A DNA stretch of 64,000 nt from Natronococcus sp. A-GB1 (GTDB lineage: Archaea; Halobacteriota; Halobacteria; Halobacteriales; Natrialbaceae). Made by a program: the position numbers and the translations under genes. The stretch is from NCBI RefSeq assembly GCF_029688845.1, contig NZ_JARUKW010000001.1, positions 124,001 through 188,000 of the forward strand, given 5' to 3'. Of the stretch, positions 14,008-46,486 are shown piece by piece (positions within the stretch are counted from its first letter, which is position 1; each line of letters begins with the position of its first letter). The notes beneath the pieces are model-generated. The model saw only the letters and a list, made by a program, of their open reading frames with translations. It had not been told where the DNA came from and made no database searches.

Positions 14008-15099
14008 ATGGACTCACGCATCCGCGAGCACGCCGAGATCATCGCGAACCACTCCGTCGATCTCCAGGAGGGCGACAACGTCGTCGTCGACGCACACCCC
14101 GTCGCCGAGGACCTGGTCGTCGCTCTTCACGAGGTGATCGGCGACCGCGGAGCGAATCCCGTAACGACCAGTCAGCGAACCGGTAAACGCCAACAGCGCG
14201 CCTATCTCCGCGCGGCCGACGACGAGTTCGACACGCCGGAACACGAACTCGCGCTCATCGAAAACACCGACGTCTACATCGCGATTCGAGCCAGCGACAA
14301 CGTCACCCAGAGCAGCGACGTCGATCCCGAGACGCAGGCGGCCCACCGGCAGGCCCACCAGCCGATCCTCGAGGAGCGCCTGTCGACCCGGTGGTGTCTC
14401 ACGCAGTTCCCGGCGCCCGCGAACGCCCAGCTCGCCGAGATGAGCACCGAGGCCTACGAGGGGTTTGTCTGGGACGCCGTCAACAAGGACTGGGAAGCCC
14501 AGCGCGAACACCAGGCGAACATGGTCGAACTGATGGACGCCGGCGAGGAGATCCGCATCAAAAGCGGCGAGACGACCGACGTCACGATGTCGATCGACGG
14601 CAACCCGACGATCAACGACCACGGCGAGCACAACCTCCCCGGCGGCGAGGTCTTCACCGCACCCCAGCCCGACACCGTGGAGGGCGAGGTGCTGTTCGAC
14701 ATGCCGCTGTACCACCAGGGTCGGGAGATCACGGACGTCTACCTCGAATTCGAGGGCGGCGAGGTCGTCTCGCACTCGGCGGCGAAAAACGAAGACGTGC
14801 TGACGAACGTCCTCGAGACCGACGACGGCGCCCGGCGGCTTGGCGAGCTCGGCATCGGGATGAACCGCGACATCGATCGATTCACGTACAACATGCTGTT
14901 CGACGAGAAGATGGGCGATACGGTCCACATGGCGGTCGGCCGGGCCTACGACGATACCGTCGGCGAGGGCAACGAAGCCAACGAGTCTGCCGTCCACGTC
15001 GACATGATCGTCGACATGAGCGAAAATTCGGTGATCGAGATCGACGGCGAGGTCGTCCAGCGCGATGGCACCTTCCGGTTTGAGGAAGGCGAGGTCTGA
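14008..15099 (+). CDS. M29-family aminopeptidase
   Basis: 363-residue thermophilic aminopeptidase (AmpS/PepS-like, peptidase family M29), a cytoplasmic metallo-exopeptidase. Segments characteristic of the family are an N-terminal domain with LQEGDNVVVDAHPVAEDLV, then RWCLTQFPAPANAQLAEMS, NLPGGEVFTAPQPD (metal ligand E), DEKMGDTVHMAVGRAY and HVDMIVDMS (C-terminal ligands). The TGA stop is formed partly by the GAGC core of a hairpin element (15091-15115), and the last 18 bases of the gene recur 129 bases downstream. Confidence 0.88.
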   Translation: MDSRIREHAEIIANHSVDLQEGDNVVVDAHPVAEDLVVALHEVIGDRGANPVTTSQRTGKRQQRAYLRAADDEFDTPEHELALIENTDVYIAIRASDNVTQSSDVDPETQAAHRQAHQPILEERLSTRWCLTQFPAPANAQLAEMSTEAYEGFVWDAVNKDWEAQREHQANMVELMDAGEEIRIKSGETTDVTMSIDGNPTINDHGEHNLPGGEVFTAPQPDTVEGEVLFDMPLYHQGREITDVYLEFEGGEVVSHSAAKNEDVLTNVLETDDGARRLGELGIGMNRDIDRFTYNMLFDEKMGDTVHMAVGRAYDDTVGEGNEANESAVHVDMIVDMSENSVIEIDGEVVQRDGTFRFEEGEV

Positions 15100-15153
15100 G
15101 CGTAGCGAAGACCTCGAAGCGGAACGGCGAGCATCGCGAGCCGTGGAGACGGC
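15082..15153 (+). repeat. Direct repeat, copy 1 (end of aminopeptidase gene plus hairpins)
   Basis: 72 bases that match 15211-15282 at 69 positions. Copy 1 contains the last six codons of the aminopeptidase gene including the stop, then two hairpins: 15091-15115 (7-bp stem GAGGTCT/AGACCTC, loop GAGCGTAGCGA) and 15124-15144 (5-bp stem ACGGC/GCCGT, loop GAGCATCGCGA). Confidence 0.95.
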
Positions 15154-15180
15154 GGCGTTTGAGCGGCAGCGAAAACGCCG
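15153..15180 (+). repeat. GA-core hairpin between the two repeat copies
   Basis: 8-bp stem CGGCGTTT/AAACGCCG (15153-15160 with 15173-15180) around a 12-base loop GAGCGGCAGCGA. A further imperfect member follows at 15190-15210 (GCGGT / CCCGC around GAGCACCGCGA, one mismatch). Confidence 0.85.
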
Positions 15181-15210
15181 AAATACCGAGCGGTGAGCAC
15201 CGCGACCCGC

Positions 15211-15282
15211 GAGGAAGGCGAGGTCTGAGCGTAGCGAAGACCTCGAAGCGGAACGGTGAGCATCGCGAACCGTGGAAACGGC
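15211..15282 (+). repeat. Direct repeat, copy 2, with compensatory changes
   Basis: Second copy of 15082-15153. Of its three differences, two form a pair: C15128 to T15257 and G15140 to A15269, which turns the C-G closing pair of the second hairpin into T-A (ACGGT/ACCGT around the unchanged loop GAGCATCGCGA). From here to 15453 no gene is seen; 15301-15325 holds another small inverted repeat (CGGC/GCCG). Confidence 0.95.
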
Positions 15283-15421
15283 TTCGAGGAGTAGATCGTA
15301 ACGAGCGGCGTGAGCCGCGTCAGTCGCCTCGAGTCGAAACGGTACTCCGGCTGACTCGCCGGGAAGCTCCCCGTACGAAGACGGAGCTGGATCGGGGACC
15401 GACGACACGGATCGTGCATCG

Positions 15422-15453: not shown

Positions 15454-15867
15454 ATGGCAGTACTCGTCGCATACGACGGTTCGGCGTCGGCACAGAAGGC
15501 CGTAGAGTACGCGTTCGACTCCCACGCCGACGAGGAGATCGTTCTGCTTCGCGTCGTCGAAGCCGCGAGCGGCTCGACCGAGGCCGGAATCAACCTCCTG
15601 CAGGAAGCGCTCCGCGATCGGGAAGAGGAGGCCTCGAGCTCCCTCGAGGACGTCACAGAACCGCTCGACACCGCCGACATCGAGTTTCGGATCGAGACCG
15701 CCGTCGGGAAACCCGAGCGCGAGGTCGTCGAGTTCGCAGAGGAGCACGACGTCGACCACATTATTATCGGCAGCCACGGCCGAGAGGGCGTCTCTCGAGT
15801 CCTGCTGGGCAGCGTCGCCGAGAAGATCGTCCGCCGCGCGCCGGTTCCGGTAACCGTGGTTCGCTGA
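15454..15867 (+). CDS. Universal stress protein (UspA family)
   Basis: 137-residue single-domain Usp. N-terminal strand VLVAYDGSASAQKAVEYA carries the conserved Asp, and the nucleotide-binding loop GSHGREGVSRVLLGS (about 109-123) has the G-2x-G-9x-G-[S/T] spacing of the ATP-binding Usp subgroup, followed by VPVTVVR. Cytoplasmic; probably a dimer. Stands alone with its own promoter. Confidence 0.92.
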   Translation: MAVLVAYDGSASAQKAVEYAFDSHADEEIVLLRVVEAASGSTEAGINLLQEALRDREEEASSSLEDVTEPLDTADIEFRIETAVGKPEREVVEFAEEHDVDHIIIGSHGREGVSRVLLGSVAEKIVRRAPVPVTVVR

Positions 15868-32093: not shown

Positions 32094-33941
32094 TCAGTGG
32101 CCCTCGTCGTGGGGGTTCATCGCCGTGCCGTAGTTCTCGGCGTGGTCCGTGTAGTCGATGAAACGCGGTGCGTCGGGATCGAACGGGCGCTCGAGGCTCT
32201 CGAAGGCCTTCTTCTTGTCCCAGCCCTGGAGCTTGCCGACCGCCGACTTGTCCTCCAGGTCGTGGTAGTCGAGTTTCGGCTCGGTGTGCTCCCAGGCCGT
32301 TACCCCCTGCTCGGTCCGGAGGATGACGCTCGAGTACTCGTCCGCCGAGCCGACGGAGCCGACGGTGACGTCGGCACAGAACCCGGTGAAGTCCGCACAC
32401 TCGTCACAGCCCTTGAGGGCGGCGTCGTGGAAGTTCTCGATGTCCTCCTCGAGGATCATCCCGCCGTCGTGATCGTAGACCATCAGCTTCCCGTGGAGGA
32501 CGTCCATCTTGCCGATCTCGTCGGGCGAGACCCCCCGCTGGACCTCGAGCTGTTCGCCCATGAGGCTGTAGTAATTGAAGTTCTTCGTACACATCAGCGC
32601 AATCGTGTACTCGACGGCGCCGATACCCTCGTCGTGGGACTGGTAATCCCACTCGAAGTCCTGCAGGGCCCGGATGCCCTCGATCTCACAGGGCGTGCCG
32701 ACCAGGGCGAGGCTGAGCTCGTCCCAGTCCTTGTCGGGAAGCTTGTGCTCCCACCGCTTCAGGTCGAGGTTGCCGAGCGCGAGCGTCTGGTTGTAGACGG
32801 TACCGGCGTTCTCGATCAGTTCTGACTCGGTCGTCGCGAGGAAGCTCTCGGCTTTCCAGGGTTCGTCCTCGCTCTCGGTTGCGATCAGGGCGCCGTCAAT
32901 CTCGCCGGCCTCGAGCAGGCTCGCCAGCATTCCGGTGACGACGCCACCGTCCTGGGCGGCGTCCGTCCAGTCGTCGTCGACCTTCGCGGAGAACTCCGTG
33001 ATCGGATCACCGGCGCCCTTGACGTTGTCCTCGCCGCCCGTGATCTTCCACTGGCGTTCGTACCGGAGCCCGCCGCGGGGACAGAAGTCCCAGCACAGCG
33101 AACAGCCGGTACACATCTTGACGAGTTCGGGCAGGTCGTCGTCGCCGACGCCGATCGAGTCCGAGGGGCAGGCGGCGACGCAGGTGCCACACTGGATACA
33201 CCGACCCTCGTCGATGACCGCCTCGTCGAGCTCCATGAACCAGGTCTTCTCGTCGGGCGTCTCGATGTCGTTCATTTCGGAGCGAATTGAGTACGTCGGG
33301 GTGTCGAGGTCGACGCCCTCGGGGACTCCGACGCGAACGTCAGGCTCGCCGTCGTCGACGTTCTGGCTCACGTCCTCGGCGGGTTCGGTGAACTCGAGGT
33401 CGCCGAGGCTCCCCGTCTCGTCGACGTTGGAGACCCCCGCTCCGTCGGTCGCGACGGACCGACCCTCCGCGTCGGGTGCGGTCTTCTCGCCGCAGGTACA
33501 GGTGTCGGGACCGCAGCCCTCGTCCGTGGCGGTCTCGATCGCACCGCCACGGGTGTGGTCGAGACCCTCGCGGGAGTGCGGCGCGGCGCCGCTCGTCTCC
33601 GGGACGATGACGGCGTCGTCCTCGTCCTCGGACTCCGGAACGGCCGGGAAGACTCGGTCGTCGCGGTTCGCGGTTTCACCGCTCACTTGGTTCGAGGACT
33701 CACGCTGTTCGTCCTCGCAGTTCGCGGCTTCGCTGCCTTCTCGCGGGTTTCGCCCGCTCGAACGGTCCGCGGAGCTTCGCTCCGCGCTACTCCCACGATC
33801 CGAGGCCTCGCGGCTCGCGTGTCGCTTCTCGCTCGCGGTTTCACCGCTCGCATCATCGGGGCCCTCACTCCGTTCGGCCCCCGCCGCTCCCGCTCGCATT
33901 TCCGAGGCCTCGCTTCGCTCGGCCTCGCCGTCAATCCCCAT
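32094..33941 (-). CDS. FrhB-like ferredoxin oxidoreductase (F420 hydrogenase/dehydrogenase beta-subunit family)
   Basis: 615 residues from the ATG that overlaps the end of nirA by 11 bases. Residues 1 to about 95 are a low-complexity Ser/Glu/Arg tract encoded by a hairpin array; about 95-235 is an acidic linker with a CGPDTCTCGE motif. From about 235 the true enzyme: two 4Fe-4S motifs (C248, C251, C254, C258 and C277, C280, C283, C287), then FrhB domain with ALVGTPCEIEGIRAL and late cysteines KGCDECADFTGFCADVTVG. MNDIETPDEK at 223 may be the ancestral start. Probable electron donor to the siroheme reductase encoded just upstream. Confidence 0.85.
   Translation of the reverse strand: MGIDGEAERSEASEMRAGAAGAERSEGPDDASGETASEKRHASREASDRGSSAERSSADRSSGRNPREGSEAANCEDEQRESSNQVSGETANRDDRVFPAVPESEDEDDAVIVPETSGAAPHSREGLDHTRGGAIETATDEGCGPDTCTCGEKTAPDAEGRSVATDGAGVSNVDETGSLGDLEFTEPAEDVSQNVDDGEPDVRVGVPEGVDLDTPTYSIRSEMNDIETPDEKTWFMELDEAVIDEGRCIQCGTCVAACPSDSIGVGDDDLPELVKMCTGCSLCWDFCPRGGLRYERQWKITGGEDNVKGAGDPITEFSAKVDDDWTDAAQDGGVVTGMLASLLEAGEIDGALIATESEDEPWKAESFLATTESELIENAGTVYNQTLALGNLDLKRWEHKLPDKDWDELSLALVGTPCEIEGIRALQDFEWDYQSHDEGIGAVEYTIALMCTKNFNYYSLMGEQLEVQRGVSPDEIGKMDVLHGKLMVYDHDGGMILEEDIENFHDAALKGCDECADFTGFCADVTVGSVGSADEYSSVILRTEQGVTAWEHTEPKLDYHDLEDKSAVGKLQGWDKKKAFESLERPFDPDAPRFIDYTDHAENYGTAMNPHDEGH
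33669..33930 (-). repeat. Hairpin array inside the FrhB-like reading frame
   Basis: Successive inverted repeats: 33903-33927 (7-bp stem, minus-strand loop GAGCGAAGCGA), 33768-33786 (8-bp stem CGCGGAGC/GCTCCGCG, GAA triloop on the minus strand), 33693-33717 (7-bp stem, loop GAACAGCGTGA). Direct repeats inside: 13 bases at 33799-33811 and 33901-33913, and 16 bases at 33669-33684 and 33834-33849; both spacings (102 and 165) keep the reading frame. Confidence 0.85.
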
Positions 33942-44788: not shown

Positions 44789-45061
44789 GAGCGCTCGCCG
44801 GCGGCGGAATACGGATGAGCTTCGATTGATGCAAGGTCGGCTCCCGATGATACCAAACTGTGTTGGAGTCAACGGTATCTATACAGCGGGGCTACAGTAG
44901 AGTACGACAGGGCCCTACCACCACCCATCACACCAGAGTCGTTCGATACCCCTGTCGTGACACACCACCCACCCTTCCCTTTCCGAAAACTCCCCGATGA
45001 GCGGCCGCGCCGTTCGCTGGGACCGAAGGAGTGTTTTGTCTGGGAGCCCACTCACTATTCA

Positions 45062-46303
45062 ATGAGTTCCCAGAACCTCGCACTCGACGTCGGGGCCATC
45101 CGCGACGAGTTCCCCATCCTCCAGCGGGAGTTCGACGGCCAGCAGGTCGTCTACCTCGACAACGCGGCGACGACCCAGACCCCGGACCCGGTCGTCGACG
45201 CGATGAGCGACTACTACCGCGAGTCCAACGCGAACGTCCACCGCGGCATCCACCACCTGAGCCAGGAGGCCTCCGAGGCCTACGAGGTCGCCCACGACCG
45301 CGTCGCCGAGTTCATCGGCGCCGACGGCCGCGAGGAGGTTATCTTCACGAAGAACACGACCGAGAGCGAGAACCTGCTCGCGTACTCGTGGGGGCTGAAC
45401 GAGCTCGGCCCCGGCGACGAGGTCGTCCTCACCGAGATGGAACACCACGCCTCGCTGGTGACCTGGCAGCAGATCGCCAAGCGGACCGGCGCCAGCGTCG
45501 AGTACATCCGCGTCGACGAGGACGGCCGTCTCGACATGGACCACGCTCGCGAGCTAATCACCGACGACACCGAGATCGTTTCGGCGGTCCACATCTCGAA
45601 CACGCTCGGGACGATCAACCCCGTCGGCAAACTGACCGAGCTGGCCCACGAACACGATGCCCTCTCGTTTATCGACGGCGCCCAGGCGGTCCCGAACCAC
45701 CCCGTCGACGTGAAGGAGATCGACGCCGACTTCTACGCCTTCTCGGGCCACAAGATGGCCGGGCCCACCGGAATCGGCGTTCTCTACGGCAAACGGGAGC
45801 TGCTCGAGGCGATGGAGCCCTACCTCTACGGCGGCGGGATGATCCGCAAGGTCACCTTCGAGGAGTCGACTTGGGGCGACCTCCCCTGGAAGTTCGAGCC
45901 CGGAACGCCGCCGATCGCCGAGGCCGTCGGCCTCCACGCCGCCGTCGACTGGCTCGAGGAGATCGGCATGGAGCAGATCCAGGATCACGAGCAGGAACTC
46001 GCGCGCTACGCCTACGAGCAGCTCGAGGACGAGGGTGACGTCGAGATCTACGGCCCCGAACCCGGCGAGGATCGCGGCGGCCTCGTCAGCTTCAACCTCG
46101 AGGGCGTCCACGCCCACGACCTGACCTCGATCATGAACGACCACACGATCGCGGTTCGGGCCGGCGACCACTGTACCCAGCCGCTCCACGACAAGCTGGG
46201 CGTCCCGGCGTCGACTCGAGCCTCGTTCTACGTCTACAACACCCGCGAGGAGGTCGACGAGCTGGTCGCGGCCCTCGAAGACGCCCGACAGCTGTTCGCG
46301 TAG
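45062..46303 (+). CDS. sufS: Cysteine desulfurase SufS
   Basis: 413-residue PLP enzyme supplying sulfur for Fe-S clusters. NAATTQTPDPVVDAM at the N-terminus, HHASLVTW, the Schiff-base lysine K231 in FSGHKMAGPTG and the catalytic cysteine C371 in RAGDHCTQPL (group II, SufS type). The chosen start MSSQNLALDVGAIRDEFP is internal to a longer open frame whose first 35 residues are not family-like. The DNA for TREEVDELVAALE near the C-terminus is repeated 208 bases downstream. Confidence 0.95.
   Translation: MSSQNLALDVGAIRDEFPILQREFDGQQVVYLDNAATTQTPDPVVDAMSDYYRESNANVHRGIHHLSQEASEAYEVAHDRVAEFIGADGREEVIFTKNTTESENLLAYSWGLNELGPGDEVVLTEMEHHASLVTWQQIAKRTGASVEYIRVDEDGRLDMDHARELITDDTEIVSAVHISNTLGTINPVGKLTELAHEHDALSFIDGAQAVPNHPVDVKEIDADFYAFSGHKMAGPTGIGVLYGKRELLEAMEPYLYGGGMIRKVTFEESTWGDLPWKFEPGTPPIAEAVGLHAAVDWLEEIGMEQIQDHEQELARYAYEQLEDEGDVEIYGPEPGEDRGGLVSFNLEGVHAHDLTSIMNDHTIAVRAGDHCTQPLHDKLGVPASTRASFYVYNTREEVDELVAALEDARQLFA
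46239..46278 (+). repeat. Direct repeat copy 1 (inside sufS 3' end)
   Basis: 40 bases identical to 46447-46486, encoding NTREEVDELVAALE just before the sufS C-terminus. Confidence 0.95.
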
Positions 46304-46446: not shown

Positions 46447-46486
46447 ACACCCGCGAGGAGGTCGACGAGCTGGTCGCGGCCCTCGA
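46447..46486 (+). repeat. Direct repeat copy 2 (sufS 3'-end fragment)
   Basis: Exact 40-base copy of 46239-46278, then a diverged end that still has TTCGCG where sufS has its last codons. It is not part of a gene. The rest of 46304-46925 has no believable coding frame. Confidence 0.95.

Follow-up and report, generated by a model that had tools for sequence, protein, structure and literature searches.

A two-hairpin repeat at the 3' end of an M29 aminopeptidase gene in Natronococcus and its haloarchaeal relatives

The aminopeptidase gene end and the E1 array

In Natronococcus sp. A-GB1, the end of the M29 aminopeptidase gene appears to have been rewritten by insertion of E1, a two-hairpin repeat of 62-66 nt (about 63 nt) without coding capacity of its own, which supplies a new stop codon and leaves the native gene end downstream. 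The genome is Natronococcus-like (Natrialbaceae), its nearest named relative being Natronococcus amylolyticus (97% identity for the aminopeptidase protein). The window, meaning the whole stretch of 64,000 nucleotides that was analysed, has a universal stress protein gene (15454-15867) downstream of the aminopeptidase gene. Gene calls come from a simple script based on codon usage, and the counts given below are based on 448 kb of this genome and on sampled stretches of other genomes. The features of the gene end are the following, with scores from the covariance model R1:

14008-15099, plus strand: M29 aminopeptidase gene (PF02073 match, E 9.9e-68), whose frame continues into E1 module A, giving the C-terminus FEEGEV*
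15082-15086, plus strand: GAGGA, the final gene-derived bases ahead of the insertion, giving FRFEDGFEE* when joined to 15279
15087-15149, plus strand: E1 module A, 63 nt, two hairpins (92.9 bits, with a model built including this copy)
15090-15116, plus strand: hairpin 1 of module A, CGAGGTCT-GAGCGTAGCGA-AGACCTCG, core GA / GC-GTA-GC / GA
15097-15099, plus strand: TGA stop codon of the aminopeptidase, formed by the last stem base and the first two core bases
15124-15144, plus strand: hairpin 2 of module A, ACGGC-GAGCATCGCGA-GCCGT, closing pair C15128-G15140
15150-15215, plus strand: E1 module B, 66 nt, with other stems (CGGCGTTT/AAACGCCG) and a GNNA loop (R1 match G000:C1:139145-139215)
15216-15278, plus strand: E1 module A', 63 nt, the second copy (91.5 bits), closing pair T15257-A15269
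15279-15294, plus strand: CGGCTTCGAGGAGTAG, the original gene end (DGFEE*), displaced by 192 nt

The three tandem modules (63, 66 and 63 nt, 192 nt in all) fill the space between GAGGA and CGGCTTCGAGGAGTAG, and when these 192 nt are removed the joined flanks read ...VVQRDGTFRFEDGFEE* in frame, the ancestral C-terminus. Relatives without E1 have aminopeptidases mostly ending in the FEDGFEE or FEDGFEA type, and a DGF-type C-terminus is found in 61 of the 99 distinct orthologous loci, with DGFEE as the commonest form. A single 62-nt E1 occupies the same site, with the native end kept, in Natrinema salsiterrestre (L063) and in genome G313 (L268), and subtracting exactly 62 nt from either gives the usual C-terminus. 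At the same site in G145 (L267) the insert is 73 nt long, including an 11-nt repeat. No clear target-site duplication was found at the aminopeptidase insertion site, with at most an ambiguity of GA.

An earlier note on this DNA had described a 72-nt repeat, 15082-15153 recurring at 15211-15282 (start-to-start distance of 129, 96% identity, three differences), which was confirmed, and had read it as the tail of the gene duplicated downstream. For the most part this reading does not hold, because joining the flanks restores the native C-terminus and single inserts occur at the same site elsewhere: the repeated sequence is the E1 element, and the present gene "tail" is itself element sequence. 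The last six codons and the stop do lie inside the repeat; however, only its first 5 nt (GAGGA) are gene-derived, the remainder being inserted element. In the comparison with relatives that the note had called for, the element in the window is seen to interrupt the native DGF-type end, so that it replaces the C-terminus (FEDGFEE* to FEEGEV*) rather than extending it. The diverged module at 15150-15215 between the two copies and the surviving gene end at 15279-15294 were absent from that note. In N. amylolyticus the array has the order B-A, with the orthologous module B directly after the gene. The A-B-A' array would most simply derive from tandem duplication or unequal exchange of such a B-A pair.

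Hairpin cores and covariation of the stems

The E1 core has the form GA-[GC or AC]-loop-[GC or GT]-GA, with variable arms on both sides. The hairpin-1 loops are GNA in 41 and GNNA in 6 copies, together 47 of the 54 parsed, and the inner pairs are always Watson-Crick, as read by a parser that demanded this core type and to which other cores would go undetected. Loops of the GNA and GNNA type on G-C pairs form extraordinarily stable, nuclease-resistant DNA mini-hairpins (PMC4686876, citing Hirao et al. 1994). E1 has the GC-GNA-GC or GC-GNNA-GC core in common with these d(GCGNAGC) mini-hairpins; they are known as synthetic fragments, whereas the E1 core is natural, flanked by GA on both sides and carried on a variable stem. 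The overlap of the stop with the hairpin core, as previously noticed, is plain from the positions: the T of TGA (15097-15099) closes the first stem, and GA opens the core GAGCGTAGCGA. In the repeat region a strict scan found five hairpins, to which an imperfect one near 15190-15209 can be added, and the predicted folding energy is -105 kcal/mol (z = -5.0 versus shuffles).

The copies A and A' differ at three positions. C15128/T15257 and G15140/A15269 face each other as the pair that closes hairpin 2, ACGG[C/T]-GAGCATCGCGA-[G/A]CCGT, and this pair has gone from C-G to T-A as the earlier note had claimed; G15147/A15276 lies outside the stems. For three random substitutions in the copy, the probability of a compensated pair is 0.007 with all substitution types allowed and 0.020 with transitions alone; since the pair was spotted post hoc, these values are suggestive only.

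Covariation extends to the 12 E1 copies of the aminopeptidase loci, with 97% of the pair cells paired and two-sided changes in seven pairs. In hairpin 1 each variable stem pair is changed on both sides in some copy, and its 8-bp outer stem has zero cells changed on one side yet still pairing. The covariation score is 0.385, compared with 0.161 for shuffled alignments (0 of 500 reach it), a result that is no probability since the copies are related, and with at most 0.107 for slid controls, over which the structure has the advantage of being derived from the same sequences. Among close copy pairs there are three two-sided stem changes (all C-G/T-A, all at gene ends) versus six one-sided ones, so that stem pairing is not absolute. 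Mismatches in the stems show a mild excess of G-T (14) over A-C (7), which would hint weakly at pairing at the RNA rather than the DNA level.

This pattern fits ordinary substitution via wobble intermediates under selection for pairing. Alternatively, the concerted stem changes might come from DNA template switching (quasipalindrome correction) and not from selection, in which case the hairpins would perhaps be neutral. Template switching is a documented maker and maintainer of hairpins (PMC8794818), and it would suit both the swapping of Watson-Crick types in the variable hairpin-1 pairs, without wobble cells, and the fact that the three two-sided changes seen in close copy pairs are all C-G/T-A. 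However, the close copies include one-sided intermediates (six versus three), single transitions via G-U wobble would suffice, and the sense-only orientation at the aminopeptidase gene is not predicted by this process, which makes it an unlikely explanation.

Occurrence of E1, related repeats and gene-tail copies

Among haloarchaeal REP-like or paired-hairpin repeats, a literature search that had most subscription papers outside its scope returned only the palindrome-associated transposable elements (PATEs) and small mobile repeats (SMRs) of Haloquadratum walsbyi (PMC3119063), which like E1 are short, transposase-free and without target duplication, the PATEs being palindromic. E1 differs from them in its two successive hairpins, in its stems varying freely around GNA cores and in its frequent location at gene ends, and a terminal oligonucleotide or inverted terminal repeat is not established for it. 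E1 could be a terminal-only PATE derived from IS605-type transposons, given that Haloquadratum has PATEs (about 52 bp, near-terminal palindrome) that insert without target duplication (PMC3119063) and that the filled sites L063 and L268 likewise show none beyond the GA ambiguity. PATEs are, however, known by a conserved palindrome sequence together with a terminal oligonucleotide, whereas free variation marks the stems of E1, and this origin is rather improbable. With respect to MITE features, target duplication is absent at the aminopeptidase site, and several dispersed copies lie within larger units that repeatedly show the left end GGTGGCGCGCGCTG. The Rfam covariance models gave no E1 match, the single weak hit (IRES_HIF1, 22 bits against a gathering threshold of 110) being elsewhere in its locus. 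E1 is provisionally regarded as an undescribed element.

Model R1 has matches at E<=0.01 in 60 of the 61 Natrialbaceae genomes, with at least 14 in this genome, at least 40 in G029 and up to at least 44 in one genome, these counts being lower bounds and the E-values rough owing to a short calibration. The dispersed units lie mostly between predicted genes, and in G029 groups of equal-scoring copies are found at separate places, as expected for a spreading repeat. At E<=1e-4, all 18 matches in 80 loci of 4.5-7 kb (560 kb) are at the aminopeptidase 3' end, and all are in the sense orientation. Across the 1.44 Mb of sequence sampled, the strong copies are likewise only at this gene, which makes mobility inside this genome less obvious than it is in G029. 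The distribution at the aminopeptidase gene is patchy, since 13 E1-bearing rows require 12 changes on a quick gene tree with many weakly supported branches, which indicates that E1 presence turns over fast by insertion, loss or interspecies exchange.

The exact E1 sequence is not common: a scan of 293 Halobacteriales genomes for TGAGCGNAGCGAAGNNNTCGAATCGG with one mismatch gave five places, each of them at the aminopeptidase gene. An exact-pattern search thus recovers the aminopeptidase copies alone, and the covariance model is required for the dispersed relatives. The core-only pattern GAGCNNNGCGA showed no excess over its reversed control and is uninformative alone; the core pattern plus stems gave 15 occurrences versus 1 for the reversed control in 448 kb. 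Hairpins are not universal 3' of genes, as stems of at least 7 pairs follow 23% of the aminopeptidase loci and 8% of other genes, an enrichment. A second gene of this genome, for a rhodanese, has its stop inside an E1 core (L324, G000:C7:40410-40481), and the rhodanese gene of N. amylolyticus also ends in one (L328, G003:C26:70926-70997). Their stems, GAGAACT/AGTTCTC and GAGAATT/AATTCTC, differ between the species by a C-G/T-A compensated pair and one A-C mismatch. Separately, the minus strand of the window holds a cluster of weaker E1-like and triloop hairpins at 33658-33928, with R1 scoring 33 bits twice.

A recent, simple tandem duplication of the tail, its copies differing at random, which the earlier note had given as the case against its own reading, would account for the 96% identity of A and A' in tandem context and for the short flanking GAGGA(A)GGC repeats. 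Although the array is partly tandem, this fails as a full account because other genera carry E1 independently at this site, because further copies are dispersed elsewhere in genomes, and because the E1 stems covary. The diverged module B between the copies also stands against it, and the still present gene end, from which the native C-terminus can be restored, largely refutes it, so that it is very improbable. Mobilisation as a REP/BIME-type element by a RAYT (Y1) transposase is similarly improbable: E1 is short, mostly intergenic, present in many copies and made of paired hairpins, as are the dispersed bacterial REP/BIME elements outside genes (PMC2817692), but unlike these it enters the aminopeptidase coding end and supplies the stop, and a Y1 transposase (PF01797) match is absent from G029 with its at least 40 E1 matches, one partial match being found in this genome.

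True tail duplications of the aminopeptidase do occur in relatives, where the last 15-75 coding nt are repeated downstream in 15 of 99 loci, compared with 5 of 1764 other predicted genes in the same scan. Two of the 15 loci, the window and L109, have the tail copy via E1. Most tail copies start 92-99 nt after the stop, across E2 (CTTTTTCATCGA...GGAAAAAGTTCGG), a second hairpin element that carries T5C. The loci belong to scattered lineages including Haloarcula (L057, L018, L027, L085, L086, L100, L095, L110, L118, L120 and others), and on the tree the duplications require 16 changes for 16 rows, namely the 15 scanned loci and L168, which was added by hand. E2-type elements do not always duplicate gene tails, as the copies inspected at other loci are without clear flanking tail copies.

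Further tail copies and elements were observed at other genes. In the window, 40 nt of the tail of the sufS cysteine desulfurase gene (44957-46303) are copied exactly at 46447-46486, the source lying 65 to 25 nt before the stop end and the copy 143 nt past the stop, and the interval holding hairpins and an A/T-tract element; degraded tail copies are present at this place in relatives. In Haloarcula rara, 50 nt of the tail of a gene (L127:6102-7005) are repeated exactly 138 nt after the stop, around a TTTTTC element. Dispersed elements with the core CTTTTTCATCGAAGTTTTTG (L135-L160), about 10 per genome, are found in two Natronococcus genomes, and several have ends like inverted GTTACGTA/TACGTAAC and exchangeable internal hairpins.

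Proposed origin, function and significance

Here it is proposed that E1 is a short two-hairpin repeat dispersed through the Natrialbaceae and wider haloarchaea, one or more units of which would have inserted into the M29 aminopeptidase gene at the junction of the FE and DGF codons. In its present form the frame runs through three to four element codons and stops at the TGA in the hairpin-1 loop, while the old gene end persists downstream, untranslated. Recombination between units, putatively unequal, would have produced the order A-B-A', and stem complementarity would be maintained by selection on the paired hairpins, most likely in the mRNA 3' end, where they may stabilise the mRNA or help to end transcription. 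This account as a whole is considered probable.

In Haloferax volcanii, hairpins also lie near transcript 3' ends, and termination can reach 59% of transcripts at a hairpin and 95% at T5C (PMC7237163). In contrast to these terminators, E1 overlaps the stop codon and is without a T stretch, none being found after the hairpins in 15087-15300, unlike in the strongest haloarchaeal terminators; T5C is carried by the E2 type neighbouring it in relatives. The lack of a T stretch favours weak termination or stabilisation, and by analogy with H. volcanii (PMC7237163) termination by the E1 hairpins only may be possible. The best guess for E1 is most likely an mRNA 3'-end hairpin with a stabilising or weakly terminating role.

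E1 is a variant of the small haloarchaeal hairpin repeats, notable in that it supplies stop codons and recurs at one site. More tentatively, and with less than even probability, it may represent an undescribed haloarchaeal class of non-autonomous double-hairpin elements, repeatedly sense at the ends of the same few genes and giving the stop from a GNA mini-hairpin loop, which together with the tail-copying T5C element would make gene 3' ends exchangeable cassettes. The aminopeptidase gene offers a case in which small repeats appear to rewrite the end of a conserved protein: several genera share the codon site concerned, and the stop comes from the element itself. Its filled and empty sites form a natural series for the study of haloarchaeal mRNA end formation, and its stems a clean case for the question of whether selection or template switching lies behind compensatory changes.
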